Below are positions 67 to 39,291 of a stretch of 39,500 bases of DNA, piece by piece. The notes below the pieces were generated by a model that was not told the origin of the DNA, made no database searches, and was given only the letters and a program-made list of their open reading frames with translations. The position numbers were made by a program, and so were the translations under genes. Each line of letters opens with the position of its first letter. The stretch's first letter is position 1. Where the stretch lies: assembly GCA_031272095.1 (NCBI GenBank), contig JAISUM010000090.1, positions 1-39,500 of the forward strand, read 5' to 3'. This DNA comes from Candidatus Symbiothrix sp. (GTDB taxonomy: Bacteria; Bacteroidota; Bacteroidia; Bacteroidales; Azobacteroidaceae).

Positions 67-1053
67 TTATTCTGTTAAAATCATTTGTTTAATATCTACT
101 TTTTGTCCATCGGCGATCAGGGCATAATAATAGATGCCTGCCGGAAATTCTGAGCCGGAAATGATCAATGATCCTGCGCCACGCTGCTGAACAGGATATT
201 GTTTCAACTGTTTGCCCTGCAAATCATAGATGCCGATAAATGCAGCGCTGATCTTGTCGGCAATGCTGTATTTAATAGTCGTCGCTTGTGAAAACGGATT
301 GGGGGCATTTTGTTCCAATCGGCAATCGGAAACAATAGACGGCGTCGCTGATATTTTTTCGGCAACGTTTGATTGTGCTGCTATTTGCAAGCGCTTGCTT
401 TGCAATTCTTCTATCTGCTCTTGCTGTCGGTCAATCAATTGTTGTTGTTCCTTGATTGCCTCAATCAGTAGTCCTGTAATTTCGCCGTAGGCAACGGATT
501 TTCGACCGTCTTCATTGGTGAGAACGACTTCCGGAACAATTTTCTCAATTTCTTGCGCAATCACTCCAATGCGTGGTTTGGAGTATTTTTCATCCATCCA
601 TTTTGTCAGTTCTTCGGTCTCTTTGAGGTGCGATACGGGCAAGGGCTTCAATTGATAGCTGACGCCCCTTAATTGCAAGACTTTACTTAACGGCGACTGG
701 ATGTTTTCGATATTTTGTTTGAAGTTCCAATCGGAAATCGTATAATAAGCCGATGCATAGACGCCTGTTACATCAGCCGCAAAATACATTTGATCAGGAT
801 AATATCCGCGAATAAAATCCGTCATGGGATAATCTACCGTAACGAGCGTTGCCATTGCTGCCTGCCCATCCTGTTGAATAGAAAGTGCAGGATAATACGA
901 GTTAAAAATCCGAACTTTGTAGGACTGATCCGGCGTCGTACCAAAACCTACATTCCCCACTGCATTCTTTTCTATTTGCGCCTGTGCCGCCAGACACAGC
1001 AACAAACATGCAGTAATCAATACTTTTCTTAATAATAACTTTGTGCGTTTCAT
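67..1053 (-). CDS. Peptidase S74 (intramolecular chaperone) domain protein with T9SS type A C-terminal sorting domain
   Basis: SDWNFKQNI (S74 Ser-Lys spacing), YSKPRIGVIAQEIEKIVPEVV, C-terminal NAPNPFSQ...IYDLQGKQLKQYP...FPAGIYYYALIADGQKV; ATGA overlap with the upstream gene. Confidence 0.85.
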   Translation of the reverse strand: MKRTKLLLRKVLITACLLLCLAAQAQIEKNAVGNVGFGTTPDQSYKVRIFNSYYPALSIQQDGQAAMATLVTVDYPMTDFIRGYYPDQMYFAADVTGVYASAYYTISDWNFKQNIENIQSPLSKVLQLRGVSYQLKPLPVSHLKETEELTKWMDEKYSKPRIGVIAQEIEKIVPEVVLTNEDGRKSVAYGEITGLLIEAIKEQQQLIDRQQEQIEELQSKRLQIAAQSNVAEKISATPSIVSDCRLEQNAPNPFSQATTIKYSIADKISAAFIGIYDLQGKQLKQYPVQQRGAGSLIISGSEFPAGIYYYALIADGQKVDIKQMILTE

Positions 1054-1859
1054 AATCTGTGATATTTTAAATATTGTTGAACTCCTTGCATTTCGTAAAA
1101 AAATTTTAATTCGGTCTTGGTATAAGAATATGAAGTAAGATATTCCACTGCTTGCCGGAAAATTTCACCGTCGCCATATTCTCCCACCTTATCCCCCCAT
1201 ATACTTGGGGGATCAACATCCAACTCTATACATATCCAATTTCTTGTTGTCCAGCCTTCGCCTCTTATGTCCGTATCGAATATGATTGTGTAACAATATA
1301 TGCAATCCATTGGATCCAATACTTGCACCAAGTTGTCTTGCATATCATATATGCCGGATAATTTCCAAGCAGTAGTTGCCAAATGAAAGGGTTCTTCCGA
1401 ATTAGCGGTTTCTCCGCAACGATGATATTTTAAATATTGTTTGACACCATCTATTTCGTAAAAGAACTTGAATTCGGTTTTCGAGTAAGAATACGCATTG
1501 ATATATTCGAGAAGAGAATAAAAGAATTTGCCATTTTCATCTTCTCGCAGTTGTAGATTGCGCCCTGTCTCTATTGTTAACGAGTCTTGGTATAATTCGA
1601 CGGATATTCGCGTATCAGTGATATATCCTACACCGATAGTATCGTTACCGAAAATTAGCGTGTAATAAAGTGGGTAATGCGCTGTCGGTTCCAATACCCG
1701 CACCAAACTGTCCTGCATATCGTATATGCCGGACAATTTCCAAGCGGTACCTGCCAAATGAAACACTTCTTCCTGATCGGGGTCGGGTTCGATGGTTTTT
1801 TCGCAGCAGTAGAGCGACAGTGCCATCAGGGCTATATAAAATAACTTTGTGCGTTTCAT
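1050..1859 (-). CDS. Hypothetical lipoprotein with two tandem copies of a ~115-aa domain
   Basis: Lipobox-like ...LSLYCCE; internal repeat FHLAGTAWKLSGIYDMQDSLVRVLEP...SYSKTEFKFFYEIDGVKQYLKYHR / FHLATTAWKLSGIYDMQDNLVQVLDP...SYTKTELKFFYEMQGVQQYLKYHR. Confidence 0.75.
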   Translation of the reverse strand: MKRTKLFYIALMALSLYCCEKTIEPDPDQEEVFHLAGTAWKLSGIYDMQDSLVRVLEPTAHYPLYYTLIFGNDTIGVGYITDTRISVELYQDSLTIETGRNLQLREDENGKFFYSLLEYINAYSYSKTEFKFFYEIDGVKQYLKYHRCGETANSEEPFHLATTAWKLSGIYDMQDNLVQVLDPMDCIYCYTIIFDTDIRGEGWTTRNWICIELDVDPPSIWGDKVGEYGDGEIFRQAVEYLTSYSYTKTELKFFYEMQGVQQYLKYHRL

Positions 1860-1874
1860 GGTGTAATAATTATT

Positions 1875-3407
1875 TTATTGAATCCATTCTTTTGTTGTTT
1901 TTCCGCCTTGCGTGATCAGGTAAATGCCGGTCGGGACGCGGCGGCGCCAAGCGTTGTTGTCGGTGCCGTGATAGATTGTTCTGCCGTAGATGTCGCGGAC
2001 ATACAGGTCGTCGGTGGCGACGGCGACGGCGACGGATGGAAGGGCGAGGTCGAGTTCGTTATTTGTCTTGCCATAGACGTTGGTATTGTAGAATTTCACC
2101 CGATAGCCCCATTGTTCGTCGTTGCTGTAGTTGTCGTCCCAAGCGTGTTGCCAATGTTCGGTGGGCGCTCCGCTGATGACGAAGAAGACGCGACCTCCGG
2201 CGGGACATTCAAAATAGAGGGTATCTTTGGGGATGGCGCTTGCTACCGACGTGTGCAAAGCGTGCACCGGACTGTAGAGGCGCGTTCCGTCGGGGCGATG
2301 CACGACAAATCCGAATCGCCAGCCGTTGTATTGTGCTTTTACGCTCCGGTAGTCATTGGTCGCTTTGCCGAGCAGTCCATCAACGCAGGCGACAATGGTG
2401 GTCGCTTTGGCGGGCGGATTGAGGCGGATGATGTTGTGTCCGTAGTTTTGGATACATTTCGAGGTGTCGATCTGAAAATATCCGTCTTCTACGGCATTGA
2501 GTTTCGGGATGCCGCGATCGACCACATGGGTTTTGCCCAAGTCGATCAGTTCGGGGATATCCCAAGTTACGAAACGGGCGGCGAGGTCGTACATTTCGTC
2601 GTTGAATTCTTCCTGCGTGATGCCGGTCAAGCGTTTGTAGGTCTCTATCGGGTCTTCCGGACTGACGGATTGTTGCCAAAGGCGAGCGATAATATCATCT
2701 CCGTGCTTATAAGTCCAATAATTTTGTATAAAGTGATTGGCATAGCGGGGCGATTCGTGCATCGGATTGAGGTGTTCGTTGCTGTAATATTCCGAAAGGC
2801 GTTCTGAAAATTTGTTTTGCGGCAGCACTCTCAGCGCCATCCATTGTGCGCACATTTCCCAAAAGACATTGCCTGACGAGCCTCCGATACCGTGCATATA
2901 GCCGCCCGGAAAGCCATCGCAATGGACTTGATATTGAAAGCAATGTCCGACTTCGTGCGCGACGGTTACGCCCAGCGCCGACGCCGACCAAGCCGTGAGC
3001 GTCAGCAGCCCTATTTTGTCGTCCATACCGGAGCCGGTGGCTTCCCATTCGTCGGTGTAGCGCAACCGGATAATCATTTTGTAGAGGTCGGTGAGCGAAT
3101 TGCCGCGCTCGATAAATTTGAGCGTGTCGGCATAATAATCGAATGACTGCTCGGCAAGCGCCAAGACTTTATTGACGTCAACGGTGTATTTCCCGTTTGG
3201 CTCGACTTTTTTACCGTCGGGATTGTCGCCGTAGCCTGCTTCCCAGAAGACGACAAAATTTGCCGATTGCCGACTGCGGCTGAGACTCCACTGATTGGCG
3301 TCGTTATTCACATTTCCCAATGCGCCGGGAATATACAAGGTTTTTTCCGCCGACAAATAGGCGCCGACGGACAAAAATAACACGAAAAAAGTAACAGTAC
3401 GTTTCAT
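1875..3407 (-). CDS. Secreted gluzincin-like metallopeptidase (DUF6055-like) with T9SS-type C-terminus
   Basis: HEVGH motif in TVAHEVGHCFQYQVHCDG and downstream FWEMCAQWM (candidate third Zn ligand); C-terminus VRDIYGRTIYHG...VPTGIYLITQGGKTTKEWIQ. Start moved from 3491 to the Met at 3407 (MKRTVTFFVLFLSVGAYLSA signal peptide) because the -7 box at 3446..3453 lies inside the longer ORF. Confidence 0.75.
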   Translation of the reverse strand: MKRTVTFFVLFLSVGAYLSAEKTLYIPGALGNVNNDANQWSLSRSRQSANFVVFWEAGYGDNPDGKKVEPNGKYTVDVNKVLALAEQSFDYYADTLKFIERGNSLTDLYKMIIRLRYTDEWEATGSGMDDKIGLLTLTAWSASALGVTVAHEVGHCFQYQVHCDGFPGGYMHGIGGSSGNVFWEMCAQWMALRVLPQNKFSERLSEYYSNEHLNPMHESPRYANHFIQNYWTYKHGDDIIARLWQQSVSPEDPIETYKRLTGITQEEFNDEMYDLAARFVTWDIPELIDLGKTHVVDRGIPKLNAVEDGYFQIDTSKCIQNYGHNIIRLNPPAKATTIVACVDGLLGKATNDYRSVKAQYNGWRFGFVVHRPDGTRLYSPVHALHTSVASAIPKDTLYFECPAGGRVFFVISGAPTEHWQHAWDDNYSNDEQWGYRVKFYNTNVYGKTNNELDLALPSVAVAVATDDLYVRDIYGRTIYHGTDNNAWRRRVPTGIYLITQGGKTTKEWIQ

Positions 3408-3445: not shown

Positions 3446-3453
3446 CAAAGTTA
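3446..3453 (-). promoter_or_regulatory. Bacteroidetes -7 box TAACTTTG for the 3407..1875 operon
   Basis: CAAAGTTA on + strand (TAACTTTG on -), 39 bp upstream of the start codon. Confidence 0.65.
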
Positions 3454-3477
3454 ATAATTTTTTTTCGCTTGCATGTT

Positions 3478-3510
3478 GAAAAATCATTCACTTTGGGGGG
3501 AATTTTAATT
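3478..3510 (-). promoter_or_regulatory. Conserved upstream element, copy A (candidate operator)
   Basis: gaaaaatcattcactttggggggaattttaatt; 29/33 ungapped identity to 10094..10126, same 24-nt spacing to the -7 box. Confidence 0.5.
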
Positions 3511-3554
3511 TTTAATTTTTACTGAGCGTTGGGACGATATTGAGTTTTTGAGTT

Positions 3555-6500
3555 TTAATATTCCAATATTTCTCCTTTTTCTAAATCAAGTTCTCCTTGA
3601 ACATCAACTACTCCTAAATATCTTAATTTTATTCGCCCGTCTTGTTGCATAAGTACTGAACCTCCCGGCAAAATTTTAACAGAACAATTATATAACTGTC
3701 CACTTTCCAAAACTAATGTGGCTCCATTTTTTATTATAACCAAAGCGGATGGAGAATCCATTGTAACTTTAGCATATTCACTGATAGTTAATGTGCCTGA
3801 ATCTACAATTAAATTGCCGCAAATGTGCTTGTCTGTGTTCCAATTTGTATTGGCACTAATAATTGTTGGTTCGCATATTGTATGATATTCACCACTATTA
3901 TATGCATCATGTCGCGAACTCCCCCATTCAACACGCGAAGAATTTCCATTAGTTTCCCAAACGTAAATCATACCGTTTGTTCCTGCAACAATTTCCGATT
4001 TGCCGTTTTTATCCAAATCTGCAATTGCAGGCGAGGAAGGATATAGAAAATCTTGTTCAACTTCCAATGGGAATCCTAATACGTTACTGCCATCATAATT
4101 GAAACCATAAATTTCTTTGCCATAATAATGCGTAACAATAATTTCTACGTCGTCATCTCCGTCTATATCCGCTAAAATTGGAGTTATTAATTGGCTCTCA
4201 ACACCACTTGCTTGAATAGTATTTAATAAGATGCCTGCATTATTCCAGATTTTTACGCAATTAGAACCAGAAGCTACCACTTCCAAATTTCCATCGTGAT
4301 TCAGATCTCCAACAACTAATTCTTTAGATAACCCTTGTACACTAATCTCATTGGTGGATGAATTATATGTGTTTTGTCCTGTCAGACCCCATCCCGATAT
4401 TAATTGCCCATTAGTATTTATAGCAAAAATTCTACAGGAAGAAGTGCCACTATAAGCTGATATTAAGATATCTTTATTGTCGTCCTTGTTGATATCACAA
4501 ATAATCGGCGATGAAGAAAATGAATAATTGCTATTAGCGTAAATAGGATTAGACGACAAGAAAGAACTACCATTGTGATGCCAAACATAAATTCCGGATT
4601 GAAATCCTGCAATAATTTCTTTGTCGCCATCATTATCCAAATCAGCAACCGCAACCGCACCATAAGTATAATCGTTGGCATTTGCCGATAATTCTCGCAG
4701 TAAAACTCCATTATAATTATATATTTGAATTTTATATCGGCTTGAAGAAGGACTATTTCCATCTGCTATTAAAACTATTTCCATAGTGCCATCAGGGCTA
4801 TTATCAATATTGGCAATCACAGGATTAGTAACAGAAGTTCTCTCAAGTGGCTTTTGCCACAATATATCCGGCAAATGATCACCATTCGCATCTTCTACCG
4901 TATGACAAGTTAATTTATTATTGCTCATTGAGTTATGAAAACGAGTCATAGAAACTATGTCATTCACGCCATTATTATTTACATCACCGATAGCAACACC
5001 TGCACGAATAGGCGCATTGAGATAGGCAAATCCGCTGTAAATAGTAATATTGTTATCAATGTCAAATAATTCTTCACCTTCATGCGACAAAGCAATCAAG
5101 GTGCCAAGACTTGCTCCATCGTGGTCGCATAATGCACCAAAAATTTCTTTATAACCATCATAATTTACATCAGCTACAACAAAATCGGCAATGATTCTAT
5201 CATAGGAAAAATCCATTTTGACTGGAAACATACCTTTCGTTGGATAAGATGTCCAAGTCAATAATCGCGAAGCTTCGCTTTCCATACCGGACGGCGACAG
5301 CGCTGTTACTTTATAATAATATTTGGTCAGTTGACTTAAACTATCGATATCTTTATAATATAGAAAAGTTACAGGCATGGTATTCAGTTTTTTATAAGTT
5401 CCTAATTCTGTGTTATTTGCACCAACGTCGCAACGATAGATATTATAAGCATTTGCGCCTGCTACTGCATCCCAAGTTAACAAAATCGAAGATTCGGCAG
5501 AAGTCGCTTTCAATCCGGTAACGGTATCCGGCATATTCAAATTAAATTCAAAAGTCCACTGTTTGCCATAAGTATTATGTACTTGTAATACGAAATTTGT
5601 TGTGCCTATTAATGATTTTGCAATAGAATAAATAGATAACGAGGATTGAGAATCATGATAATTAATAGTTGGGAACCCTATATTGTAACCGACATTGTTA
5701 TAAGATAAAGTGCCTGATAATCCTATTGCCGGAGCTTTACCCAGGTTCTGCAGTTGTAATTTAAAAAACAAAGTAATGGATGATTGAGATATGGTAACTT
5801 TATTCCTTAATGCTAATTCTGTTGAAAAAACATCAATATTAAAAGTTCTTGTCCAAATTTCCCCTGATGCATCAGTCATTTCTAATTGAAAGGTAATCGG
5901 ATTTTGTGAATTAGCAAGATGTTCGGATAAATCTTTGTCTATATGATATAAAAATTGACCAGTAGCGGATGCTGCTGTTGCAATATTACCGTAATTGAAT
6001 ATGCCATTGAGAATTTCTATGGAGTCGGAATTACATGTTAAAGTAGCTATCAAGCCGTTTGTTGCCGTATTGCCACTGTTTTTCACTTTCAATTCCAATA
6101 AAATAGTTTCACCTGCATCATTGAGAGCGTCGCTGTTTCCAATGCTACTATTGTTACCAGTATCAATAAAATTAACAGACTCTATATAAGGATTAGCCGT
6201 AGATGCTCTTAAATTTGCGTTTATTGTTCTTTCCACAGGAATATAATTATGAGCAGTAATTGTAAGAGATATTTGACCTGCCTTTCCACACGAAATCGGA
6301 ATCGGATTGTTGCCATTACCTCCTTGGAACACTTCGTATATTTCCGTCCCTTTTTGAACACAAATCTGTGCGGAATCTCCCGCAAGAAGACCGCTTATAT
6401 TAACATTAAGTGTTTGAGTGCCTGCAAAAATCATTGAAGGCAAACCTGTTACAGTCAAGGCTTGTGGCGTATTTGTCCAAACTTGCATTTCGGGGTCTCC

Positions 6501-8342
6501 AAGAAGGTGAAGACGCCATTTTTGATGCTGCATATTTATATTTGCATTTTGAAATGCACTGCCTATATCATATCGTCCTATGCTTGGATGCCCAGTCGTA
6601 GAATAAATTGCATCCATAAAACATTGTAGTTGAGTCCTGTCGGAGTCCCATCCAATATCCGTATTTCCCATAAATGCCACTCCTCCATTTTGATTAATTA
6701 TATAATGTTTTCCTAAACAATCATAAGTGAAATTTGCAGGGTGACAACCGCCAGATAGCATAATTTGATAGGATGTTCCATTGCTTAAATTATCTATGTC
6801 TGTTCTGATAACATGTTCTCCTTTGTCTTTATTGGATGTGGATATAGATGTGGCATTAGAATGATCTAAATGATAGATAAAATGAAATTTTCCAATACCA
6901 AAATTTGCGCCAAAGTTTAAACATGACAAAAAATTCTCACGAGAAAGTTCAATATCCCCACCACCGGAAACACATCCTGCCGTATATCTGTTTGTATTTC
7001 CCGAACAATCCGCATTATCACAGATATATTTATTATTTATATTTGAAGGGACATAATTTGCAACATAACCTTTAATAAAGGAATGAGAACAATTTGTTAA
7101 TGCTCCTGATTCATATATCAAATATGCATCTGCATAAAGATTATTTTTTAAATAAATCAAATCACCTATTCCGGTCGCTTTCTCGTATGCTATTACTTTA
7201 TTGATATACACTGCAATTTCTTGAACGTTATTCACAGGGACTCTACCAAGAATGTTAATGTAACTGATAGAATTATTGCCGTTAAACAAATCTGCACTAT
7301 CAATCTCCCAAGCAGTGGAAGTTGAAAAATATTTATCAGAAGGATAAGATAAATTGTTATGTACACCCCTGATTTTTCTGGAAGGAACAATATCTATATT
7401 ACCGCCTAATAGGACATACAATCCGGCACCCCAATTAGTATGTGCCTCTAATAAATAATTTCTGATTTTTTCTGGCAAATCACTTCCGCGATAATTTGAA
7501 TTAATATCTTCAATGGTAGCAATAGTTGTAAATATACCTTTTTTTGTTTTCCAATTAACCAATGGCTGAAAGGCGGCTTTCAAAGAATCTCTTGTAATAA
7601 TGATATAATCAGGAATAATTTCATCTAATACGGATGGCTCGAATGAACGTAAACTTCCCGCATTAGACTGAACAATCTTTCTCCCATTGACCAATGTTTG
7701 AGCATTTGAACCGATTTTTTCCACATCCGATGAATTTCTGACAATATGTGTGACGAAATTTTTACATAATTTTGCTCGTACAATGCTTTGTCTTTTCGGT
7801 CGTAATACATTTTTATTGTAGTCCGATTCATATTCTACCGTATATTCCAGATTAGGATAATAATTCAGTATTCTACTTTTAGGAATATATTCAAAAGGAT
7901 ATAAACGAATGGTTACAATATGATAACCATGAAAAATATCATCCGACTCTATTTCATATAATTTTTCGGGGAATGGAGCATCGGAATTATATATTTTTTC
8001 ATCGGGACGCACAAAGGCTATCGGTTTTGTATCCGCCACCGGTATTTGTGGTTGCGCGGGATAAATAAGTACATCTTTCTGAAATAGCTGTTTGTCTTTT
8101 GACAAAAATTTAATTCCGTTAAACTTGGCATCTGTAGGCAAAACATAAGAGACCCTTATCATTGGCAATTCCGGATTTCCTTCATCAGTGATTTTGTAAT
8201 CAGACGACCAAATAAATCTATCATACGATTGTTCTTTAGTTATTTTAAAATCATCGTTATGAACAGTGATACGATCTTGTATTTGCGCTTGCAGATTGCA
8301 AACAGCAATCAAACACAACGAAAGGAATAATTGGGTCTTCAT
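3555..8342 (-). CDS. Peptidase C25 (gingipain-like) family cysteine protease with fibronectin III and FG-GAP/VCBS repeat regions
   Basis: FHFIYHLDHSNATS (catalytic His region), MLSGGCHPANFTYDCLGKHYIINQNGGVAFMGNTDIGW (catalytic Cys region), TGLKATSAESSILLTWDAVAGANAYNIYR (FN3), DVNYDGYKEI / DLDNDGDKEI / DINKDDNKDI / DLNHDGNLEV / DIDGDDDVEI / DLDKNGKSEI repeats. Confidence 0.88.
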   Translation of the reverse strand: MKTQLFLSLCLIAVCNLQAQIQDRITVHNDDFKITKEQSYDRFIWSSDYKITDEGNPELPMIRVSYVLPTDAKFNGIKFLSKDKQLFQKDVLIYPAQPQIPVADTKPIAFVRPDEKIYNSDAPFPEKLYEIESDDIFHGYHIVTIRLYPFEYIPKSRILNYYPNLEYTVEYESDYNKNVLRPKRQSIVRAKLCKNFVTHIVRNSSDVEKIGSNAQTLVNGRKIVQSNAGSLRSFEPSVLDEIIPDYIIITRDSLKAAFQPLVNWKTKKGIFTTIATIEDINSNYRGSDLPEKIRNYLLEAHTNWGAGLYVLLGGNIDIVPSRKIRGVHNNLSYPSDKYFSTSTAWEIDSADLFNGNNSISYINILGRVPVNNVQEIAVYINKVIAYEKATGIGDLIYLKNNLYADAYLIYESGALTNCSHSFIKGYVANYVPSNINNKYICDNADCSGNTNRYTAGCVSGGGDIELSRENFLSCLNFGANFGIGKFHFIYHLDHSNATSISTSNKDKGEHVIRTDIDNLSNGTSYQIMLSGGCHPANFTYDCLGKHYIINQNGGVAFMGNTDIGWDSDRTQLQCFMDAIYSTTGHPSIGRYDIGSAFQNANINMQHQKWRLHLLGDPEMQVWTNTPQALTVTGLPSMIFAGTQTLNVNISGLLAGDSAQICVQKGTEIYEVFQGGNGNNPIPISCGKAGQISLTITAHNYIPVERTINANLRASTANPYIESVNFIDTGNNSSIGNSDALNDAGETILLELKVKNSGNTATNGLIATLTCNSDSIEILNGIFNYGNIATAASATGQFLYHIDKDLSEHLANSQNPITFQLEMTDASGEIWTRTFNIDVFSTELALRNKVTISQSSITLFFKLQLQNLGKAPAIGLSGTLSYNNVGYNIGFPTINYHDSQSSLSIYSIAKSLIGTTNFVLQVHNTYGKQWTFEFNLNMPDTVTGLKATSAESSILLTWDAVAGANAYNIYRCDVGANNTELGTYKKLNTMPVTFLYYKDIDSLSQLTKYYYKVTALSPSGMESEASRLLTWTSYPTKGMFPVKMDFSYDRIIADFVVADVNYDGYKEIFGALCDHDGASLGTLIALSHEGEELFDIDNNITIYSGFAYLNAPIRAGVAIGDVNNNGVNDIVSMTRFHNSMSNNKLTCHTVEDANGDHLPDILWQKPLERTSVTNPVIANIDNSPDGTMEIVLIADGNSPSSSRYKIQIYNYNGVLLRELSANANDYTYGAVAVADLDNDGDKEIIAGFQSGIYVWHHNGSSFLSSNPIYANSNYSFSSSPIICDINKDDNKDILISAYSGTSSCRIFAINTNGQLISGWGLTGQNTYNSSTNEISVQGLSKELVVGDLNHDGNLEVVASGSNCVKIWNNAGILLNTIQASGVESQLITPILADIDGDDDVEIIVTHYYGKEIYGFNYDGSNVLGFPLEVEQDFLYPSSPAIADLDKNGKSEIVAGTNGMIYVWETNGNSSRVEWGSSRHDAYNSGEYHTICEPTIISANTNWNTDKHICGNLIVDSGTLTISEYAKVTMDSPSALVIIKNGATLVLESGQLYNCSVKILPGGSVLMQQDGRIKLRYLGVVDVQGELDLEKGEILEY

Positions 8343-8361
8343 GATTTACAGTATTTAAAAG

Positions 8362-9027
8362 TTACAATATCAGTTTTTTAGTAACAACGCTCGAATCTTT
8401 ATTCACGATGCGTACAATATAAATGCCTTTCTCAAAATCTTTTGTGTGAATAATAGTATTTACAGGATGAGAAATAGAGGCTATTCGGCTCCCGTCTATT
8501 CTGAATATATTTACAGATAGAATATCATCAGCATTGAAGATTTTGATTTGTTTTTGATGCCGATCAAACACAAGATCTTTTTGTAAGGTAATTTCTTGAA
8601 GTGATATTGGAATGCCAATATTATATTCTTTATTTGAGGGTGCTGATTCGCCGTCAGGATTGGAATATTTTGCTGTTACCCATAGATCACCTGCTTCGTA
8701 ACATCCTCCCTTTTGAAAATATGTCTCTGTTGTGGTAGCAATCAATTTTGGGATTCCCCATTCGTTGGTGTCAACATTCCGAGATTGAAAATAAATATTG
8801 TATTCGATTAATTGTAATTCCGTTCCGGATAAATCGGGAGCCTCCCATTGATAACTAAAGCAACAAGTGATGTTACAAAGTGATTCTCCGCCGCAAAAAC
8901 CGGGAGGACACTCTCCTAATAGTATATAATACATAGATGTTTTAAAATTATAAGGAGCGGGATATTGGGCAAATACTGTGTTGCACACAGACATACAAAC
9001 CACCAAAAATAATATACATTTTTTCAT
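8362..9027 (-). CDS. Small secreted protein with T9SS type A C-terminal domain
   Basis: Signal peptide MKKCILFLVVCMSVCNTVFA; C-terminus IKIFNADDILSVNIFRIDGSRIAS...FEKGIYIVRIVNKDSSVVTKKLIL. Confidence 0.7.
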   Translation of the reverse strand: MKKCILFLVVCMSVCNTVFAQYPAPYNFKTSMYYILLGECPPGFCGGESLCNITCCFSYQWEAPDLSGTELQLIEYNIYFQSRNVDTNEWGIPKLIATTTETYFQKGGCYEAGDLWVTAKYSNPDGESAPSNKEYNIGIPISLQEITLQKDLVFDRHQKQIKIFNADDILSVNIFRIDGSRIASISHPVNTIIHTKDFEKGIYIVRIVNKDSSVVTKKLIL

Positions 9028-9039
9028 TGTTTTATCTCC

Positions 9040-10011
9040 TTATTCTGTTAAAATCATTTTTTTTACATTCACTTCTTGTCCGTCCGCGATCAGAGCATAA
9101 AAATACATTCCGGCTGCAAATTCTGCACCGGAAACAGCTAATGAACCGACGCCACGTTGTTGAATTGGGTATTGTTTCAACTGTTTGCCTTGCAAATCAT
9201 AGACACACAAGGATGCGGTTTGTATTTCAGGCGTCAGATAAAATTTGATGAACGTAGTCTGCGCAAAGGGATTGGGCGCATTTTGGTACAAGCGACAATC
9301 GGCAATGGCAGTGCCGGATATGTCGGTAACTGTTTCTGAAGATCGCAACTGATTGAGGTTGAACTCGTTGAGTTGCTTTTTCAGATCTTCGATCTCTTGT
9401 TGCTGTTCTTTGATGGCTTCTATCAGCAAGCCGGTGATTTCGCCGTAAGCAACAGATTTTCTGCCGTCTTCGTTGGTATCAACCACTTCCGGAATGATTT
9501 TTTCAACTTCCTGTGCTACCAATCCGATGCGTGTTTTGGAATATTTTTCTTCCATCCATTTCTTTGCATCGGATAGATCTTTCTCACGAACACTGTCGAG
9601 CGCTAAAGGCTTTAATTGATAACTGACACCACGCAATTGCAACACTTTACTTAGCGGAGATTGAATATCCGCGATATTCTGCTTGAAGTTTTCATCGGAC
9701 AGACTATAAAAACTTGTAGCATACAATCCCGTATTATTGGCACGCAAATAAGCTGTACCAAGATAAGTCCCGCCAATATAATTGGTCGTCGGATCATCTA
9801 TACCAATACCTATTGAATACATAGTTTGTCCATGTTGCTCTATACGGATAGACGAATATTCAGTGTTGGTAATCACTAATTTATCCGTTGAAGCCGGCGA
9901 CATACCTAATCCAGTATTACCGTACATGTTAACTCTCATCTGCCCGATTGCAGAAATACTTACTAAAACGCTTACGCAGATAACTGCGATTTTTTTGACT
10001 GACTTTTTCAT
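9040..10011 (-). CDS. Peptidase S74 domain protein with T9SS type A sorting domain (paralogue of 67..1053)
   Basis: SDENFKQNIADIQSPLSKVLQLRGVSYQLKPL, YSKTRIGLVAQEVEKIIPEVV, C-terminal APNPFAQTTFIKF...YDLQGKQLKQYPIQQRG. Confidence 0.85.
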   Translation of the reverse strand: MKKSVKKIAVICVSVLVSISAIGQMRVNMYGNTGLGMSPASTDKLVITNTEYSSIRIEQHGQTMYSIGIGIDDPTTNYIGGTYLGTAYLRANNTGLYATSFYSLSDENFKQNIADIQSPLSKVLQLRGVSYQLKPLALDSVREKDLSDAKKWMEEKYSKTRIGLVAQEVEKIIPEVVDTNEDGRKSVAYGEITGLLIEAIKEQQQEIEDLKKQLNEFNLNQLRSSETVTDISGTAIADCRLYQNAPNPFAQTTFIKFYLTPEIQTASLCVYDLQGKQLKQYPIQQRGVGSLAVSGAEFAAGMYFYALIADGQEVNVKKMILTE

Positions 10012-10061
10012 GGTTTTTTTGTTTAATTTTTGTTGAACTCATTTGTTATTTGATTTTTTGG

Positions 10062-10069
10062 CAAAGTTA
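10062..10069 (-). promoter_or_regulatory. Bacteroidetes -7 box TAACTTTG for the 10011..3555 operon
   Basis: CAAAGTTA on + strand, 51 bp upstream of the start codon. Confidence 0.65.
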
Positions 10070-10093
10070 ATACATATTTTTATATCACAGGTA

Positions 10094-10126
10094 GAAAAAT
10101 CATTCATTATAGAGGGAATTTTAATT
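10094..10126 (-). promoter_or_regulatory. Conserved upstream element, copy B (candidate operator)
   Basis: gaaaaatcattcattatagagggaattttaatt; same spacing to -7 box as copy A. Confidence 0.5.
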
Positions 10127-10293: not shown

Positions 10294-13200
10294 CTATTGC
10301 TGCTTTTGATATTCCGAAGGGGTGAGGTTGTAGGTGTTTTTGAAGCAGAGAGAGAAGTATTTCGGATCGCTGAAACCGGTGGCGTAGGCGACTTCCGTGA
10401 TGCGCATCGAATCGTCTTTCAGCAGTTTGCAGGCGTGTTTCATTCGGACGTTAAGAATAAATTCGATGGGCGACAGTCCGGTCAGGGCTTTGATTTTGCG
10501 GTAGAGCGTCGATTTCGACATATTCATGTTTTCCGCAAAATTGTTGACGTCAAATTCGTTGTTGTCGATATGTTTGTTGATCAGCTTGACCGCATCTTCC
10601 AGGAACGATTCGTCTATTGAATGGTATTCCAATGTTTCGAGGTTGAGGTTGGCATCGGAGATAAATTCGGTCTGGCGCTGTTGTTTATTGCGCAGCAGAT
10701 TGACGACACGCGCTTTCAAGACTTGCATTTCAAAGGGTTTGGAGATGTAGGCGTCGGCTCCGGCGTCGTAACATTCGACGCGGTCTTCGATCTGATTTTT
10801 CGCCGTCAGCAGCAGGACGATGATATGGCTGGTCTCAAAATTGCCTTTCAGTCGGCGACAGAGCGCCAAACCGTCGATCAGCGGCATCATAATGTCGCTG
10901 ACAAGGATGTCGATTTTTTGTTCTTGAATGATGTTCAGGGCTTCCTGTCCGTTGTTGGCGGTCAGCACCTTGTATTGCGAGCGGAAAGCATTGGCGACCA
11001 ACATCCGCAATTCTTCGTTGTCTTCGGCGATCAGGAGGGTGATGTCTTCCGCTGTTTTCGGTTTGTTGTCTTCCTCTTGCAAAGCTTGGTCGATATGCGC
11101 CGTAACCGTTTCGGGCTGGCTGATGGTGGCGTCGTCCGAAAAATCGTAAGCGGCAAAAGCGGTTTTGTCCACCGGAATTGTTACGGTGAACGTGGTGCCT
11201 TCGTGCAGTTTGCTTTCCACGTCGATCGTCCCGTGGTGCAGTTCGATCAGGTCTTTGGTGAGCGACAGTCCGATGCCGTTGGTTTCTTTTTGCAGGGTAT
11301 CGTTGTTGTTGAAAAAGCGTGTAAAGATATTCGGCAGGTCTTTCGACGATATGCCTTTTCCGGTATCGCTGACGGTTATTTTGACGAATTTGGTTTTGCC
11401 GTCTATCTGTTCGCCGAGAATCACGACCGAGATATAGCCATCGTCGGGCGTATATTTAAAGGCATTGGAAAGCAGGTTGAAAATCACTTTGTCGATCTTG
11501 TCGGGGTCAAACCACGCTGTAATCTTTTCGGGATAGGCGTCAAACGAGAAATTGATTTTTTTCTTTTCGATCAAAGGTGAAAAATTGGTATAGCATATAT
11601 TGCGGACGAAGGCGACGATTTCGTCTTCGGAAAGTTTCAGTTTCATATTGCCGGTTTCCATTTTGCGGAAGTCCAAGACTTGTTGCAGCAGGCGTTTCAA
11701 CCGGCTGATATTGGAGCGCATAATATCGTGTAGCGGGATATATTCTTTCGATTTGTTTTCGATTTCGTCCATTGCACAGGAGATGATGGTGAGCGGCGTC
11801 AGCAAATCGTGAGAGATATTGGTGAAATAGCGCAGTTTGGTTTGCATCAGTTCTTCCGATTTGTCTTTGTCGATTTGCGCGATTTTCAGCTCGTTGATCA
11901 GCTTGATGCGGTTTTTGACCGTCCGGTAAGTGTAATAAATGATCAGTCCGATGATGATCAGATAGAGGAAGTAAGCCATTGTTGTTTCGTAAAAAGCGGG
12001 GTGTCGATAGATGGTCAGGATGGTTTCGTCTTTGTCCCAGATGCCGTTTTCGTTGGTAGCTTTCACGCGAAATTGGTATTTGCCTTTGTCTAAATGGTTG
12101 TAGAACGCAAACTGCCGGTCTTGGTCGGTATAAGACCAGTCGTAATCGACGCCTTCCATTTTGTAGGCATAGCGGACTTTCGACGAAAAGCTGTAGTTGA
12201 GCGACGAGAAATCTATTTCTATATTGAAATCTTTGGGTGTGAGGTTCAATGTTTGTTTGGCGATGTCGAATTGCCGATTGCGGGATCCTTCGAGCAGCGA
12301 TTGGTTGTTGATTTTGACGTCGGTGATACAGATACGTCCGGCGTCGGTTATTCCCGACAGATTTTCTATCGGCGAGAAGATCGATACACCACGATTGCCG
12401 CCGAACAAGAGGTTGCCTTCGTTGTCTTTGTAGCAGGCGTTGGTGAAGAAACTGTTGACCAAAACGCCGTCGTGATCGTTATAGTCGCGAAAAGCCTGAT
12501 TGACAGGATTATAGACGATGATTCTTTTGACGGTCGAAATCCAGATATTGCCCATGTCGTCGTTGAGAAAATTCAGCGCTTTTTCGCCGGACAGTTTGAT
12601 GATTTGCGACAGGTCGTTGGTCTGCTTGTTGAAAGTGTTGTATGTCAGCACTCTGCCGTCTTGTGTGGCAAACCAGATTTGTCCGTTGCGGTCGCCGCAG
12701 ATCGTCGTAACTTGCAGGTTGTTGACTACCCGTTGGGGCGTTGCAATGGAGTCGTGGCTGATATTCACTACATCTAATCCATCGTTCGACGACAGCCAAA
12801 TATTGCCGCAAATGTCTTCGGTGATGCCTGTGATACTGTTGAATTGACGGGGGATGGTTTTCAGTTTTTTATCGTCTGCCGTGAGAACAAACAGGCGAAA
12901 GGCGCTTGCTATCCAGATATTGCGATGCTGGTCTTCTATCATAAAACGGACGTTTCGACCGGATACAACCTGCGTTTCGACCGGCACTACCACCCGATTG
13001 ACCAACTGCAACTGATTGTTTTTTTGTTTGACGCGATAGATGATCGGCTCGTATTCCTGCGCCAGCCATAATTCGTCGGGATAGTCCGAAAAAGAACGGA
13101 TAAAACCGATATTCGACAGGTTGAAATCGGGCGAAAAATAATTGTAAAGATTCAGTTTTTTAGTCGTGATATTGTAACTGCACAGCCCGAAACGATTCTG

Positions 13201-14301
13201 ATTGAACCACAGCTCGTCTTTGTATTTGTAGAGCGAGGTCGGATACGCCACTACATTGGTGTGCTTTTTGATGTCGGGCATATCGTAGTTTTGCACTATC
13301 GGTTTGTTGAAATTGATTTGCAACACGCCTTCGCTGAACGTGCCGATCCACAAGTTGCCTTTATTGTCTTTGATGACGTCGCTGAACACATTGTTGTAAT
13401 TTTGGAAGACCGACGAGAGGTCAACGGCTTGCAGTCGGTTGTCGGCGTCGTATTCAAATCCGTGCAAACCGGAATACGACATCGCCCAGATACAGTGCGA
13501 ATGGTCGTCCTGCACGAAGCCGTAAACAGCGTGGATTTCTTTTTGTTTCTCCTTGCTGTACAGCGGCACAGCGGTATAGATGCGCTCTTTGCTGTTGGGG
13601 TTCATCAGGAACAGACCGTCACCCCAAGTGCCTACCCACAACTGTTGGTGGTCGTCTTCAAAAATACGAAACGGGTTGTTCTTTTTCCCTATCGGCGGCA
13701 TCGCCTCAAAACGGTCGTCGGTCGGGTCGTAGCAGAACAAACCATGCTCCCAAACGGCAATCCAGATGCGTCCCTTTGAATCTTGAAAAATATGCGTAAC
13801 GCTTTGTACGGGCAACTCGTCGTATTTCTTGACGAAAGAATAATCTTCGTCGAAGCGGAACAGCGCGGTAGTGGTGCCTACCCAAATATCCTTATCGGAG
13901 GCGATACAAATGTTCACAACGACGCTGTCTCGAATGTGCGCATCGTTCAATGGCGTGATGTTGTAGGTGTTTTTATTGAGCAGATTCAGCCCTTTTTCGG
14001 TACCGATCAGCAGATTGGATGCATCTTCAGCGATACATTCAATGAAATTGTTGGTCAGCAACCGGGGATTGGCGGCATTGCTCATAAAAGTCAGGAATCG
14101 GTATCCGTCGTATCGGCACAAGCCATCTGTGGTACCCATCCAAATATAACCCTGCGAATCCTGAAAGATCCGCCGAACAGAATTAGTCGGCAGTTTACCG
14201 GTCAGCGGCAAGGGACTAACCATTACATCCGCAGCCAAACAAACGATCGAACCGGTTAAACACAAGGCGCATATCACCCATTTTAAACAACACATTTTCA
14301 T
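10294..14301 (-). CDS. Hybrid two-component system sensor/regulator (HTCS): beta-propeller, Y_Y_Y, histidine kinase, receiver, AraC-type HTH
   Basis: RRIFQDSQGYIWMGTTDGLCRYDG repeats; FTNISHDLLTPLTII; GIGLSLTKDLIELHHG; LVSDIMMPLIDG; ITEVAYATGFSDPKYFSLCFKNTYNLTPSEY. Confidence 0.95.
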   Translation of the reverse strand: MKMCCLKWVICALCLTGSIVCLAADVMVSPLPLTGKLPTNSVRRIFQDSQGYIWMGTTDGLCRYDGYRFLTFMSNAANPRLLTNNFIECIAEDASNLLIGTEKGLNLLNKNTYNITPLNDAHIRDSVVVNICIASDKDIWVGTTTALFRFDEDYSFVKKYDELPVQSVTHIFQDSKGRIWIAVWEHGLFCYDPTDDRFEAMPPIGKKNNPFRIFEDDHQQLWVGTWGDGLFLMNPNSKERIYTAVPLYSKEKQKEIHAVYGFVQDDHSHCIWAMSYSGLHGFEYDADNRLQAVDLSSVFQNYNNVFSDVIKDNKGNLWIGTFSEGVLQINFNKPIVQNYDMPDIKKHTNVVAYPTSLYKYKDELWFNQNRFGLCSYNITTKKLNLYNYFSPDFNLSNIGFIRSFSDYPDELWLAQEYEPIIYRVKQKNNQLQLVNRVVVPVETQVVSGRNVRFMIEDQHRNIWIASAFRLFVLTADDKKLKTIPRQFNSITGITEDICGNIWLSSNDGLDVVNISHDSIATPQRVVNNLQVTTICGDRNGQIWFATQDGRVLTYNTFNKQTNDLSQIIKLSGEKALNFLNDDMGNIWISTVKRIIVYNPVNQAFRDYNDHDGVLVNSFFTNACYKDNEGNLLFGGNRGVSIFSPIENLSGITDAGRICITDVKINNQSLLEGSRNRQFDIAKQTLNLTPKDFNIEIDFSSLNYSFSSKVRYAYKMEGVDYDWSYTDQDRQFAFYNHLDKGKYQFRVKATNENGIWDKDETILTIYRHPAFYETTMAYFLYLIIIGLIIYYTYRTVKNRIKLINELKIAQIDKDKSEELMQTKLRYFTNISHDLLTPLTIISCAMDEIENKSKEYIPLHDIMRSNISRLKRLLQQVLDFRKMETGNMKLKLSEDEIVAFVRNICYTNFSPLIEKKKINFSFDAYPEKITAWFDPDKIDKVIFNLLSNAFKYTPDDGYISVVILGEQIDGKTKFVKITVSDTGKGISSKDLPNIFTRFFNNNDTLQKETNGIGLSLTKDLIELHHGTIDVESKLHEGTTFTVTIPVDKTAFAAYDFSDDATISQPETVTAHIDQALQEEDNKPKTAEDITLLIAEDNEELRMLVANAFRSQYKVLTANNGQEALNIIQEQKIDILVSDIMMPLIDGLALCRRLKGNFETSHIIVLLLTAKNQIEDRVECYDAGADAYISKPFEMQVLKARVVNLLRNKQQRQTEFISDANLNLETLEYHSIDESFLEDAVKLINKHIDNNEFDVNNFAENMNMSKSTLYRKIKALTGLSPIEFILNVRMKHACKLLKDDSMRITEVAYATGFSDPKYFSLCFKNTYNLTPSEYQKQQ

Positions 14302-14428: not shown

Positions 14429-17400
14429 ATGAAAAATATTCGATACTGTATGATAGTCGTTGTCACCCTGTTTTTGGCAGGTTGGCAACAAGGTTTCGCC
14501 GAGCAAAATATCCGCTTTCAACGAATCAGCGAACATGACGGGTTGTCGCAAAACACGGTCAGATGTATTTTGCAGGATAGTCGTGGCTTTATCTGGCTGG
14601 GGACAATCAACGGACTGAACCGCTACAACGGCAAAGAATTTACGGTGATGCGCCCCGAAATCGGCAAAGCTGTTTCGCTCTCCGACAACCGCATCCGCAG
14701 TCTGATGGAAGACCGCTTCGGCTATATCTGGATTCGGACGGTGGATAATACCTACGATTGCTACAACCCTACGATTGAAAATTTTGTGGATTATGCACCC
14801 GCCGTCAAACGAAAAAATTTCGTCCGCGCCGTCGAATTGCCCAATGGCGATGTCTGGCTGTGGGGCGGCAATGTGGGTTGCTGTCGCGTTCGACATATCG
14901 ACAAACAACTGCAATCGACCTGTTTCAACGAAAAAGATTTCGGCGTTTCGACTATCTATCAAATTATGGCAGACACGAATGGGCAAGTCTATATCCTGAC
15001 GGCGAATGGCGTCTGGCAAATCGACGCCGATGGACGCCTCGAACCGTTTTGCTCCGAAACGTTCATGCGCATCCACGAGTTTGACGGACAAATTTTTCTG
15101 ATCAACAACCGGCAAATACTGACTTACAGTCTGACTGACCGACAATTCGGCGACACGATCTCCTACACGGTCGCCCCCGACGATATGCACGTCAGCGCAA
15201 TGTCGAAAGATGGGATTATTTTGATAGAAACGCCGAGTGATGTGCTGGTTTTCGACGCCCGAAAAAAACATTTTATCGCCTCCGCCGCTGTTTTTCATGA
15301 AAAGATTCCCAATGCCAATTTTTATGCCGACAACAAGGGAAATATCTGGATCTACAACCTCACAGGCGCCATTTGGCGGCATATTGCGGACACGCAATTC
15401 GAGAAAATCACGCTGATGCCGCCCGCCGTAGTGTCGCTCATCGACGCCGAGCGTTACGAGATTTGCCACGATGCGCAAGATATGATCTGGATCAGCACTT
15501 ACGGCGCCGGACTCTACGCTTTCAACGCGCAAACCGGAGAAATGGATCACTATACGACCGAGAACAGCGACCTGCCGACCAATTATCTGTTGAGCATTGC
15601 CGAAGACCGATCGGGCGAGATCTGGGCAGGCACCGAATTTTCGGGCGTCTGTAAAATCTCGCGTAATAATTACCCGGTACGACTGTTCGAACCTGCCGAA
15701 AACGATGCCCACTATCGCAGCAATTCCGTCAGAATGATTTATCAGGACAGTCGGGGGCGGTTCTGGATGGGAACACGCAGCGGCTATCTCTATGTCTATG
15801 ATGCGGCACTGCAACTATTGAAATTGCACCGCATCGCAGCAGGTTTGCCGTTCTGTGCCATAGAAGACAAAAACGGCAATATATGGATAGGTACACGCGG
15901 CAATAAACTGATGGTTTTTGCACCTTCGGCAGACCGCATTGTCCGCTCCTGCGATATTCAGCACACTTTCGATTTGACGATTGACCGCGAAAACCGCATC
16001 TGGGTGGCGTCTTTCGGATCGGGCTTGTATTACGCCGATCTCGACCATCCCCAACTGCAATTTGTCAATATCAGCTTGGGGAATGCTTCCCGCGATATGG
16101 GGCGCGTCATTCTGCAAGACAGGGAAGGTTGGATCTGGCTCGGTACCAACGAAGGCGTCAATGTTTTTCAGCCCGACCGACTGATCGCCGATCCCCAAGC
16201 GTATATCAATTTTCATTTCGACATCAATGACAGCCATTCGCTCAACAACAACGAAGTCAAAGCCATTTACGAAGATTCGCAGGGGCGACTGTGGCTGGGG
16301 ACTACCGGCGGCGGACTGAACTTGCTGGTACGCGAAGATCCGCTTTCGCAGTCGTGGTTCAAACATTATACCGCCAAAAACGGCTTGTCGAACGAAGTCG
16401 TCCAAAGCATCTGCGAAGACCGCGAAGGCAATCTTTGGCTGACCACCGAAGGCGAAACGGGAATCTCGAAATTTAACCCGACAACCGAACTGTTTGAAAA
16501 TTTCAACTTTACCGGCGGCAAACAAAGCAATCTGTTCAACGAGTCGGCAGGTTGGCAAACCGACGACGGCAAATTGATGTTCGGCAGCTCGGCAGGCGTG
16601 TATGTTTTTGAGCCGGAAAGCATCAAATATGACGCTTATGCGCCGCCTGTCGTGATCACCGGCTTGAAAATCAACGGCGCTGACGTCCGCCCTTTGGAAA
16701 ACCGCTCGCCGCTCGTCGAAAGCATCAGCCTGACAAAAACGATTAGACTGCCATACGGACAAAATTCGTTCAACATCGAATTTGCCATGCTGAATTTCCA
16801 ATCTCCGGATTTCAACCAATATGCCTATTATTTAGAGGGTTACGAAAAAGAATGGAACCCGATCAGTCGCTACAATGTTGCCGCTTACCGCAACCTGCCC
16901 GCCGGTGATTATCGTTTCCGCGTGAAAGGCAGCAATGCTTTCGGTGTTTGGACAACACAGGATACTTGCTTGGAAATCACGATTTTGCCGCCATTCTGGA
17001 AATCGGCTTGGGCATACCTGATCTATCTCCTGATCGGCGCAGGCGGCATTTGGTTTGCCGTCGGAATCATCCTGCACATCAACCGTTTGAACTTAGCAGT
17101 CAAGGTCGAAAAACAGCTGACCGACTATAAACTGCGCTTTTTCACCAATATCTCGCACGAGTTTCGTACCCCGCTCACCATCATTCGTGGCACTATCGAA
17201 AATCTGACTGCCTTCGACAATTTGCCGCCCGAACATGCCAAGTCGATCCGACTGCTGAACAAGAGTTCCAACCGACTGCTGCGGCTGATAGATCAGCTGC
17301 TCGATTTCCGAAAACTGCAAAACAAAGGCTTGGAACTGAAAGTGGAACGCACCGAAGCTGTGAGCTTTTTCTACGACATCTTTTTGGTTTTCAGAGAAGT

Positions 17401-18634
17401 AGCCGAGAAAAAGAATATCCGCCTGCTGTTTGAACACAACCTGCCGCGATACGATATGCTGTTAGACCGGAATAAATTCGACAAAATTACTTACAATCTG
17501 CTCTCGAATGCGCTCAAACATACACCGGAAGGCGGAGTGATATTGATGAAAATTCATTTTTCGGAGGTAAATAATCGTATGACTTTGAGTGTCGCCGACA
17601 GTGGCGCCGGCGTGCCGAAAGACCGGCAAAACGCACTTTTTGTCCGTTTTGCGCAAATCGACGACCGGATTGGCGGCACCGGCGTAGGCTTGCACCTGAC
17701 CGCTGAAATGGCTGCCGTCCACAAGGGGACGGTCGAATATTCCGACGCCGAAACCGGAGGAGCCTGTTTTAGCGTGTCCGTCCCTTTGGCAGACGCCAAC
17801 TATTCGCCCGACGAGATTGTCCGTTCGCAGCCGCTTGCGACCAAATCGCCGGAGATGATCACGGTCGATGGACGGTTCAAAAATTACCGCATCTTGGTGA
17901 TAGAAGACGAAGACGACGTGCGCGAATTTATTGTCGGTCAGTTGGAAAAATATTTCAGCATTATTGCCGCCAAAAACGGGCGAGAAGGCTTGGAAACGGC
18001 GATTGCCGTACAACCCAACCTGATTGTCTGCGACGTGATGATGCCCGAAATGGACGGTTTTGAATTTACGCGCCGCCTGAAAACCGATTTCCAATCGAGC
18101 CATATTCCGGTCATCCTGCTGACGGCTCATTCGTCCGAAGAAGACCGTTTGGAAGGGATTCAGGCAGGCGCCGACTCGTATATCACCAAGCCTTTCAGCG
18201 TGCAATATCTGCTGACACGCATCGTCAATCTGATTGAAAACCGCGAAACCCTGCGGCAAAAATTCGCACAGGAACCCCGACAAAGCTTGCCAATGAATGC
18301 TTTCACCGACAAAGACGCCGATTTTCTGCGCAAAGCAGACGCCGTCATCGAACGCCAACTCGAAAACATTCATTTTTCGGTCGATGATTTTGCGCAAACC
18401 ATGAAAATGGGACGCACCACTTTCTACAAAAAAATCAAAGGCTTGACCGGCTATACGCCCAACGATTATATGATGATTCTCCGTATGAAACGTGCCGCCG
18501 ACCTCCTCAATACTACCGACCTCAATATCTCCGAAGTCGCCTACAAAGTCGGTTTCGACGACCGCCTCTATTTCAGCAAATGTTTCAAAAAACAGTTTGG
18601 CGTGCCACCCAAAGCGTATAAAAAGAGTGGTTAG
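14429..18634 (+). CDS. Hybrid two-component system sensor/regulator (HTCS), second copy, divergent
   Basis: Propeller repeats (VRCILQDSRGFIWLGTINGLNRYNG), FTNISHEFRTPLTII, GTGVGLHLTAEMAAVHKG, IVCDVMMPEMDGFEF, ISEVAYKVGFDDRLYFSKCFKKQFGVPPKAY. Confidence 0.95.
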   Translation: MKNIRYCMIVVVTLFLAGWQQGFAEQNIRFQRISEHDGLSQNTVRCILQDSRGFIWLGTINGLNRYNGKEFTVMRPEIGKAVSLSDNRIRSLMEDRFGYIWIRTVDNTYDCYNPTIENFVDYAPAVKRKNFVRAVELPNGDVWLWGGNVGCCRVRHIDKQLQSTCFNEKDFGVSTIYQIMADTNGQVYILTANGVWQIDADGRLEPFCSETFMRIHEFDGQIFLINNRQILTYSLTDRQFGDTISYTVAPDDMHVSAMSKDGIILIETPSDVLVFDARKKHFIASAAVFHEKIPNANFYADNKGNIWIYNLTGAIWRHIADTQFEKITLMPPAVVSLIDAERYEICHDAQDMIWISTYGAGLYAFNAQTGEMDHYTTENSDLPTNYLLSIAEDRSGEIWAGTEFSGVCKISRNNYPVRLFEPAENDAHYRSNSVRMIYQDSRGRFWMGTRSGYLYVYDAALQLLKLHRIAAGLPFCAIEDKNGNIWIGTRGNKLMVFAPSADRIVRSCDIQHTFDLTIDRENRIWVASFGSGLYYADLDHPQLQFVNISLGNASRDMGRVILQDREGWIWLGTNEGVNVFQPDRLIADPQAYINFHFDINDSHSLNNNEVKAIYEDSQGRLWLGTTGGGLNLLVREDPLSQSWFKHYTAKNGLSNEVVQSICEDREGNLWLTTEGETGISKFNPTTELFENFNFTGGKQSNLFNESAGWQTDDGKLMFGSSAGVYVFEPESIKYDAYAPPVVITGLKINGADVRPLENRSPLVESISLTKTIRLPYGQNSFNIEFAMLNFQSPDFNQYAYYLEGYEKEWNPISRYNVAAYRNLPAGDYRFRVKGSNAFGVWTTQDTCLEITILPPFWKSAWAYLIYLLIGAGGIWFAVGIILHINRLNLAVKVEKQLTDYKLRFFTNISHEFRTPLTIIRGTIENLTAFDNLPPEHAKSIRLLNKSSNRLLRLIDQLLDFRKLQNKGLELKVERTEAVSFFYDIFLVFREVAEKKNIRLLFEHNLPRYDMLLDRNKFDKITYNLLSNALKHTPEGGVILMKIHFSEVNNRMTLSVADSGAGVPKDRQNALFVRFAQIDDRIGGTGVGLHLTAEMAAVHKGTVEYSDAETGGACFSVSVPLADANYSPDEIVRSQPLATKSPEMITVDGRFKNYRILVIEDEDDVREFIVGQLEKYFSIIAAKNGREGLETAIAVQPNLIVCDVMMPEMDGFEFTRRLKTDFQSSHIPVILLTAHSSEEDRLEGIQAGADSYITKPFSVQYLLTRIVNLIENRETLRQKFAQEPRQSLPMNAFTDKDADFLRKADAVIERQLENIHFSVDDFAQTMKMGRTTFYKKIKGLTGYTPNDYMMILRMKRAADLLNTTDLNISEVAYKVGFDDRLYFSKCFKKQFGVPPKAYKKSG

Positions 18635-38900: not shown

Positions 38901-39291
38901 GCCCGGCATCACCGGCGCAACGGCATACTATCAATACGGCTACGACAACAGCGGTAATTACGTCGGCAACAACAACCACTTCGGAATTGTAGTAGATTCA
39001 TACTCCAATCCTGCCACTACATTGACTCGCCCGCTGCAACCGTTTGAAGCATTTGTGGTCACGAAATCTGGCTCTTTGCGCTCCTCCATCGGCATCGGCG
39101 CCACCGAAACGCCGGTCGCCTTGCCCGCAGTGATCACGAAAGATCCGGTCGTCAAAACGGAATATTACAATCTGCAAGGGCAGAGATATTCCATTTCTCC
39201 GAAAAATGGAATATCTGCCGGCACTCCCTATATCGTGAAAGAAGTGCACCAATCGGGGAAAGTAACTTCTAAAGTGATTAGTGGTAAGTGA
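35998..39291 (+). CDS. Large secreted surface protein: right-handed beta-helix region, then DNRLRE/CBM96-like domain and C-terminal region
   Basis: Signal peptide MRKLFSLLLALTALWCCGAVAVNA; KTIYVTPSGAGNKDGSDWANAYDNVSTAVAAAASGDIVALQQGTY; SEDTYVSGKSGNQGDSYSSDVSLRIRKATSTYDDLRSYIRFVIPE; C-terminal YYNLQGQRYSISPKNGISAGTPYIVKEV. Confidence 0.8.
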   Translation: MRKLFSLLLALTALWCCGAVAVNAKTIYVTPSGAGNKDGSDWANAYDNVSTAVAAAASGDIVALQQGTYQRTGHITPVATNVQLQGGYTGVGDTREINPANTIYKAENTPGRIFEATTDAANGFTLSGITFTANEGNLGHGGFLQLNNNVIIEDCIIDGFINTYSATSATGGGLFRTSVAGYTLTINRCRITNCQGSSHSSYNAIFVFGNQNGTFNIYNTIINGCTTRLLASASNDARYVNIINSVLANNTVGIDFSTNSGKVITNSIIYNTPVTSTSGAQFTNCYANGSLGSNTQTGCYSFTSLSEVLTANYTPTAALVDKGTTVSVGATDIAGNPRTYGSIDIGPYENIEVTNYTAGANIASLSAYGLYGSTAVYVSLTTAGNDYVPDYQDGVIFTQVNGASYTAIVTNSIPVTKTADIEAKTFTASQATTTVTVSYPSYITVTGPALSNVTTNNGITTGTYLAPANSAIYFSLEAIYENPEATVTDATAGAITETNGIYTLPLTNIIAGATVRLSASLINYTLNKVESNATVSFAGGTSATTAHYNDEVTGTVSVTSPYHSPYVSVDGVYTALDGNNQFTFTVTGNTTVAVTAFAENVIPVSEDTYVSGKSGNQGDSYSSDVSLRIRKATSTYDDLRSYIRFVIPEDIRTSYNKAELKLSLQRVSVATKLELRKANATVSAVATLNGLTWSECGETNNTFSGDIIWQATANHAVGSEENGYLTTDEVVSIDVSSCITEDTETITLQPSQNGGGGYVMYRSLENGNPDYVPVLVFSQPAFKVSAPQNASASNYITSGDNANGDVIFYEDGQLLDATDFTPVNGVVKVVKTFQTDKWYPIGAPFEIASVSINDGTTTHVGIPYIGTETVPADPANFVDADDNNSVADNFFLAEYDGEGDKFKFTQTFTQNKGYVIEFPLEGFQVNYVTVTFTSTANPLLKSTVGIPETMGSATYKLIANPNVANWATPGITGATAYYQYGYDNSGNYVGNNNHFGIVVDSYSNPATTLTRPLQPFEAFVVTKSGSLRSSIGIGATETPVALPAVITKDPVVKTEYYNLQGQRYSISPKNGISAGTPYIVKEVHQSGKVTSKVISGK

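Follow-up and report, generated by a model that had tools for sequence, protein, structure and literature searches.

A tandem-repeat promoter element in front of two secreted-protease operons of Candidatus Symbiothrix sp. is a probable operator of the adjacent HTCS

The DNA motifs recognized by hybrid two-component systems (HTCSs) in Bacteroides are direct repeats, with tandem sites 21 bp apart on average, and the similarity between these motifs follows the similarity between the DNA-binding domains of the respective regulators (Ravcheev et al., 2013; PMC3878776). The regulons described in that study serve glycan use, and its main text does not use the terms protease, peptidase or small RNA. 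In Porphyromonas gingivalis, T9SS components are regulated by PorY-PorX-SigP, an ECF sigma cascade (PMC4800418). Finally, FopS and GibS of Bacteroides thetaiotaomicron are paralogous small RNAs with links to glycan metabolism, FopS being transcribed from ordinary sigma promoters and GibS from PM2 (PMC11697453). The locus described here resembles the operators of Bacteroides polysaccharide utilization loci in that a direct repeat with an offset of about 21 bp is found beside an HTCS gene and its target operon, and in that the motif follows the AraC-type DNA-binding domain; it differs from them in its adjacent targets, which are operons for a C25 protease and a DUF6055 protein, and in the presence of two sites before non-coding units. 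T9SS-secreted proteases in a member of Bacteroidota are a feature common to this locus and the P. gingivalis system (PMC4800418), but in place of an ECF sigma cascade there are primary-sigma -7 boxes combined with a predicted tandem activator site. The likeness to FopS and GibS consists in paralogous small RNAs, which are candidates here; unlike FopS and GibS, the twin units are arranged in tandem, behind predicted HTCS-type operators.

The window, that is, the whole stretch of 39,500 nucleotides that was analysed, is one complete contig (C95) of a 2.3-Mb genome that is assembled into 141 contigs and is 87% complete. Read along the minus strand, the order is HTCS, promoter P2, S74-T9SS protein, small T9SS-tail protein, C25 protease, promoter P1, DUF6055 protein (HEVGH), lipoprotein-like protein and a second S74-T9SS protein, so that P1 and P2 are both downstream of the HTCS gene and are read in its direction. 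The features are as follows.

67..1053, minus strand: protein with an S74 chaperone domain and a T9SS tail, third gene of operon 1, overlapping the preceding gene by 4 nt
1050..1859, minus strand: lipoprotein-like protein of operon 1, with a Cys after a hydrophobic leader and a match to DUF1402 below threshold only
1875..3407, minus strand: predicted secreted gluzincin-like protein of the DUF6055 family with HEVGH, first gene of operon 1, assigned by Pfam PF19527 (E 3e-136), HExxH and C-terminal sequence
3446..3453, minus strand: -7 box of P1, TAACTTTG, 25 nt past the core, with the -33 TTG absent
3478..3510, minus strand: predicted operator of P1, proximal half-site TGAATGATTTTTC at 3478-3490, distal half weaker with an offset of 22 bp
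3555..8342, minus strand: C25 (gingipain-type) protease of operon 2, with C25 propeptide and FG-GAP repeats
8362..9027, minus strand: small protein of operon 2 with a weak T9SS sorting tail (Por_Secre_tail, 23.5 bits, under the 27-bit cut-off)
9040..10011, minus strand: S74 and T9SS-tail protein, first gene of operon 2
10062..10069, minus strand: -7 box of P2, TAACTTTG
10094..10126, minus strand: predicted operator of P2, proximal half TGAATGATTTTTC at 10094-10106, distal half TGAATTAAAATTC with an offset of 22 bp
10294..14301, minus strand: HTCS, proposed activator of P1 and P2, with (Pfam) Reg_prop propeller, Y_Y_Y, HisKA, HATPase, receiver and AraC-type HTH

The DUF6055 gene starts at the ATG at 3407; a longer ORF with a GTG start would cover the promoter. 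Its product has no match in the other 40 genomes of the genus, and therefore the protease operon is not traceable by orthology. A second HTCS gene (14429-18634) is divergent from the first. Close to the end of the contig, the window also contains an ORF of 1097 codons (35998-39291, plus strand) to which Pfam assigns no domain.

The original prediction was of two 33-bp elements with identical spacing to a -7 box, and both are present on the minus strand, at 3478..3510 and 10094..10126, and match at 29 of 33 positions. In each of them the core TGAATGATTTTT is followed, 25 nt further on, by TAACTTTG, which is 24 nt from the end of the 33-mer, and direct reading bears out that there is no TTG about 19-21 nt upstream of either -7 box. 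Aligned locally, the two promoters share 78.5% identity over a gapless stretch of 65 bp that takes in everything from the element to the -7 box. None of 100 shuffles of the window contains the pattern AATTCCC-N7-TGAATGATTTTTC, and the genome-wide search proposed for it returns P1 and P2 as the only exact matches.

Further copies were sought by pattern searches of the contigs. In the first genus-wide search, the full two-part pattern gave, elsewhere, only matches resembling those in coding regions; because the distal half is too variable, the search was switched to the proximal core and its spacing to the -7 box. In this form (core-N25-TAnnTTTG) the pattern has five exact sites in the 2.3-Mb genome compared to about 0.0009 expected under an order-3 model, namely P1, P2, the promoter of a GH43 gene on contig C16 and two tandem non-coding units on contig C129 (positions 5247 and 5474). 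The next-best sites carry at least two mismatches. With up to three mismatches allowed, there are 40 genomic matches versus 5 for the reversed control, and the latter has none in this genome at up to one mismatch. At the C16 site (position 10992), 21 nt lie between the end of the -7 box and the ATG of the GH43 glycosidase, the gene for which comes after GH88, GDSL and GH106 genes.

When the five sites are compared with themselves, upstream sequence included, the summed matches amount to 51 at an offset of 21 bp and 42 at 22 bp, and do not exceed 34 at any of the remaining offsets between 12 and 28. The word conserved between P1 and P2 is the promoter-proximal half of a tandem direct repeat of 21-22 bp; across the five sites we observe, as in HTCS operators, a same-strand repeat about 21 bp apart. 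The identity between half-sites is highest in C129 site A (15/18 at 21 bp), followed by C16 (12/18), P2 (10/18) and P1 (8/18); in P1 and P2 the distal half-site is weak and is offset by 22 rather than 21 bp.

This distal half and the 22-bp offset are common to P1 and P2 and absent from the C16 and C129 sites, which, along with the 65-bp gapless alignment, would fit a local copy of the promoter, such that P1 and P2 are alike mainly through common descent rather than through selection for a single regulator. Each operon has an S74 gene, and the two are indeed paralogous (55% protein identity between 67..1053 and 9040-10011), but the specific proposal that the promoter was duplicated together with them does not hold, given that these genes are located at opposite ends of their operons, first in operon 2 and third, with no promoter of its own, in operon 1. 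Moreover, the gene that follows P1 (DUF6055) is unrelated to the gene that follows P2, and the core precedes unrelated genes both in this genome and in others. We consider it quite improbable that descent accounts for most of the similarity; copying of the 65-bp promoter and shared function are, in any case, compatible.

The placement of the element beside an HTCS gene is typical of HTCS operators: P2 is located between the stop codon of the HTCS (10294) and the next gene, and P1 is at the next operon. Relatives of this HTCS, compared over the receiver-plus-HTH region, were gathered from genus, family, order and GTDB genomes. The closest relative in the genus (L043, 63% identity over receiver and HTH) has an exact core directly past the HTCS stop codon, 26 nt before TAACTTTG and ahead of a SusC gene; the core sites of other relatives precede GH2, GH43 or SusC genes. 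A core with up to three mismatches, 24-26 nt from a -7 box, is found in 15 of the 27 relatives (at least 48% identity) versus 2 of the 21 other HTCSs (below 46%; Fisher p=9e-4, with these cut-offs set after the data had been seen), and the adjacent promoters of 12 of the 27 relatives contain no good core. Over all loci, the rank correlation is modest (rho -0.35, p=0.012). Because this scoring uses the core of the window itself, a separate enrichment was run without the window, in which TTTGAATGATTT ranks first of the 14,055 12-mers separating the promoters of the relatives from those of other HTCSs (14/27 vs 1/20; p=6e-4, uncorrected for the 14,055 words). Outside the genome of the window, exact sites occur in 6 of the 392 genomes of the order, in particular in 2 of the 13 with a strong HTCS relative as opposed to 4 of the 379 without one (p=0.014). 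The motif tracks the DNA-binding domain of the HTCS across genomes and, as judged from sequence, the element follows the HTCS encoded directly upstream (10294-14301) and not the S74 paralogues. In practical terms, TTGAATGATTTTTCnACC about 25 nt before TAnnTTTG is a usable recognition word for one HTCS subgroup.

One or both promoters might instead be regulated by a different HTCS of the same genome, either assembled or missing. There are several more HTCSs in the genome, the assembly is incomplete, and related half-sites are found on contigs C121, C135, C76 and C103. However, the HTCS adjoining P2 is the very one whose relatives carry the core, the core is absent from the promoters adjoining the second HTCS of the window, and the promoters beside the other HTCSs examined in this genome differ from it at no fewer than 4 of 12 positions, so this alternative appears unlikely. 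Far less likely still is recognition by PorX or by an alternative sigma factor of the ECF type, for instance SigP. It would agree with the lack of a -33 TTG in P1 and P2, with the T9SS cargo among the products and with the role of PorY-PorX-SigP in P. gingivalis (PMC4800418), but both promoters have the TAnnTTTG -7 box that is canonical for the primary sigma factor (PMC7366714), the element has a tandem-repeat structure, and further copies of it precede SusC, GH2 and GH43 genes next to relatives of a single HTCS. Thus, of the activator or alternative-sigma dependence suggested originally, the activator part is favoured by the missing -33 box and the abutting tandem repeat, and the sigma part is not; among the several candidate regulators, it is the adjacent HTCS that gains support for co-regulation.

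Hence the AraC-type output domain of the HTCS at 10294-14301 very probably has the 33-bp element as its tandem operator. From the observed sites, spacing, repeat and link to HTCS relatives, together with general knowledge of AraC-type activators, we infer the following mechanism. The HTCS would sense a periplasmic ligand, probably a glycan fragment, and phosphorylate its own receiver, whereupon the half-sites, separated by two helical turns, would each be occupied by one of two DNA-binding domains pointing the same way. Between the end of the proximal half-site and the primary-sigma -7 box downstream of it there are about 24 nt, and this half-site would abut the place of the missing -33 element; the bound activator could then substitute for the -33 contacts and recruit the primary-sigma polymerase to TAACTTTG, so that transcription is turned on and both secreted-protease operons are switched on together. 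The same site would also drive the GH43 enzyme on C16 and the two non-coding units on C129. We take these latter sites to be served by this HTCS rather than by one that is not in the assembly, although another HTCS of the same specificity could be missing because the genome is 87% complete. Related half-sites (TTGACCGATTTTTC...) are present in the same genome and are probably used by its other HTCSs, so cross-recognition is possible.

The HTCS itself combines all the expected domains in one chain, from the sensor propeller to the AraC HTH. In many HTCSs, an S/CHIP-DK interface between receiver and HTH is inhibitory, being frequent and not obligatory, and the S/CHIP receiver motif is reported to keep the DNA-binding domain inactive (PMC11253607). 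In the HTCS at 10294-14301, SHII replaces S/CHIP, and Asn is found at the alpha6 position that we align with the conserved Asp. The Pro of S/CHIP is often absent in the subgroup to which this protein belongs (SHII, SHIF, SHIS, SHVA, SHIN and others), whereas nearly all less related HTCSs in the same alignment retain it. With the Pro missing from this HTCS and from many of the proteins closest to it, the HTCS may be activated in a way that departs from the standard scheme.

Operators of this kind are already known; the unusual feature here is the cargo that we predict, namely secreted proteases of gingipain-like and gluzincin-like type along with twin small RNAs. The idea of a shared regulon stands, but its restriction to secreted proteases was too narrow considering that the element also precedes a GH43 gene and two non-coding units. 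As a tentative interpretation, somewhat less than an even bet, an HTCS of the glycan-sensor type might have been re-targeted to a mixed regulon of secreted proteases (C25, DUF6055 and T9SS-tailed partners), GH43 and two tandem small RNAs. This would offer a candidate answer to how gingipain-like and gluzincin-like secreted proteases can be switched on in a Bacteroidales species without the PorXY-SigP route and, if true, would include a direct HTCS-to-small-RNA arm, for which we found no precedent in the literature compared on HTCS operators and Bacteroides small RNAs.

The C129 region in question (5217-5632, plus strand; L196) consists of two tandem, near-identical units of about 115 nt with no evident ORF, located between a divergent gene for a trypsin-like protease and a convergent NAGLU gene. 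Each unit has a predicted HTCS-type operator, TACCTTTG, and a 12-bp stem with a U-run at the end. BLAST finds no match to the units in the other genomes among the 41 of the genus and 393 of the order that were searched, Rfam yields nothing above the gathering score for the region, and the folding of the two RNAs is only a little more stable than that of shuffles (z -1.2 and -0.5). Since Rfam is empty and the folding is close to that of shuffles, their status as candidate small RNAs derives from the promoter, the stem followed by the U-run and the duplication. Among potential duplexes with 15 translation starts, the one nominal match involves the trypsin-like protease gene next door (0.02 of shuffles) and is not significant after 15 tests. 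The occurrence of the twin units behind the same operator makes the link between the HTCS and small RNAs testable.

A relaxed search for half-sites identifies additional 21-22-bp tandem repeats at C121:9223, C135:4172, C76:48583 and C103:9353 (L221, L239, L217 and L236, respectively). Their half-sites are of the type TTGACCGATTTTTCnACC, with a -7 box about 19-20 nt further on, and the genes behind them encode proteins with N-termini that look secreted; these repeats are probably operators of other HTCSs in the genome. A distinct promoter-like element, TTAACG-T14-GTTC...GAAAAT...TAnnTTTG, is found at C14:3793, C28:6213, C36:3452, C122:8238 and C134:17950, and the genes that follow it seem to be mutually unrelated in the three of these five places that were examined.
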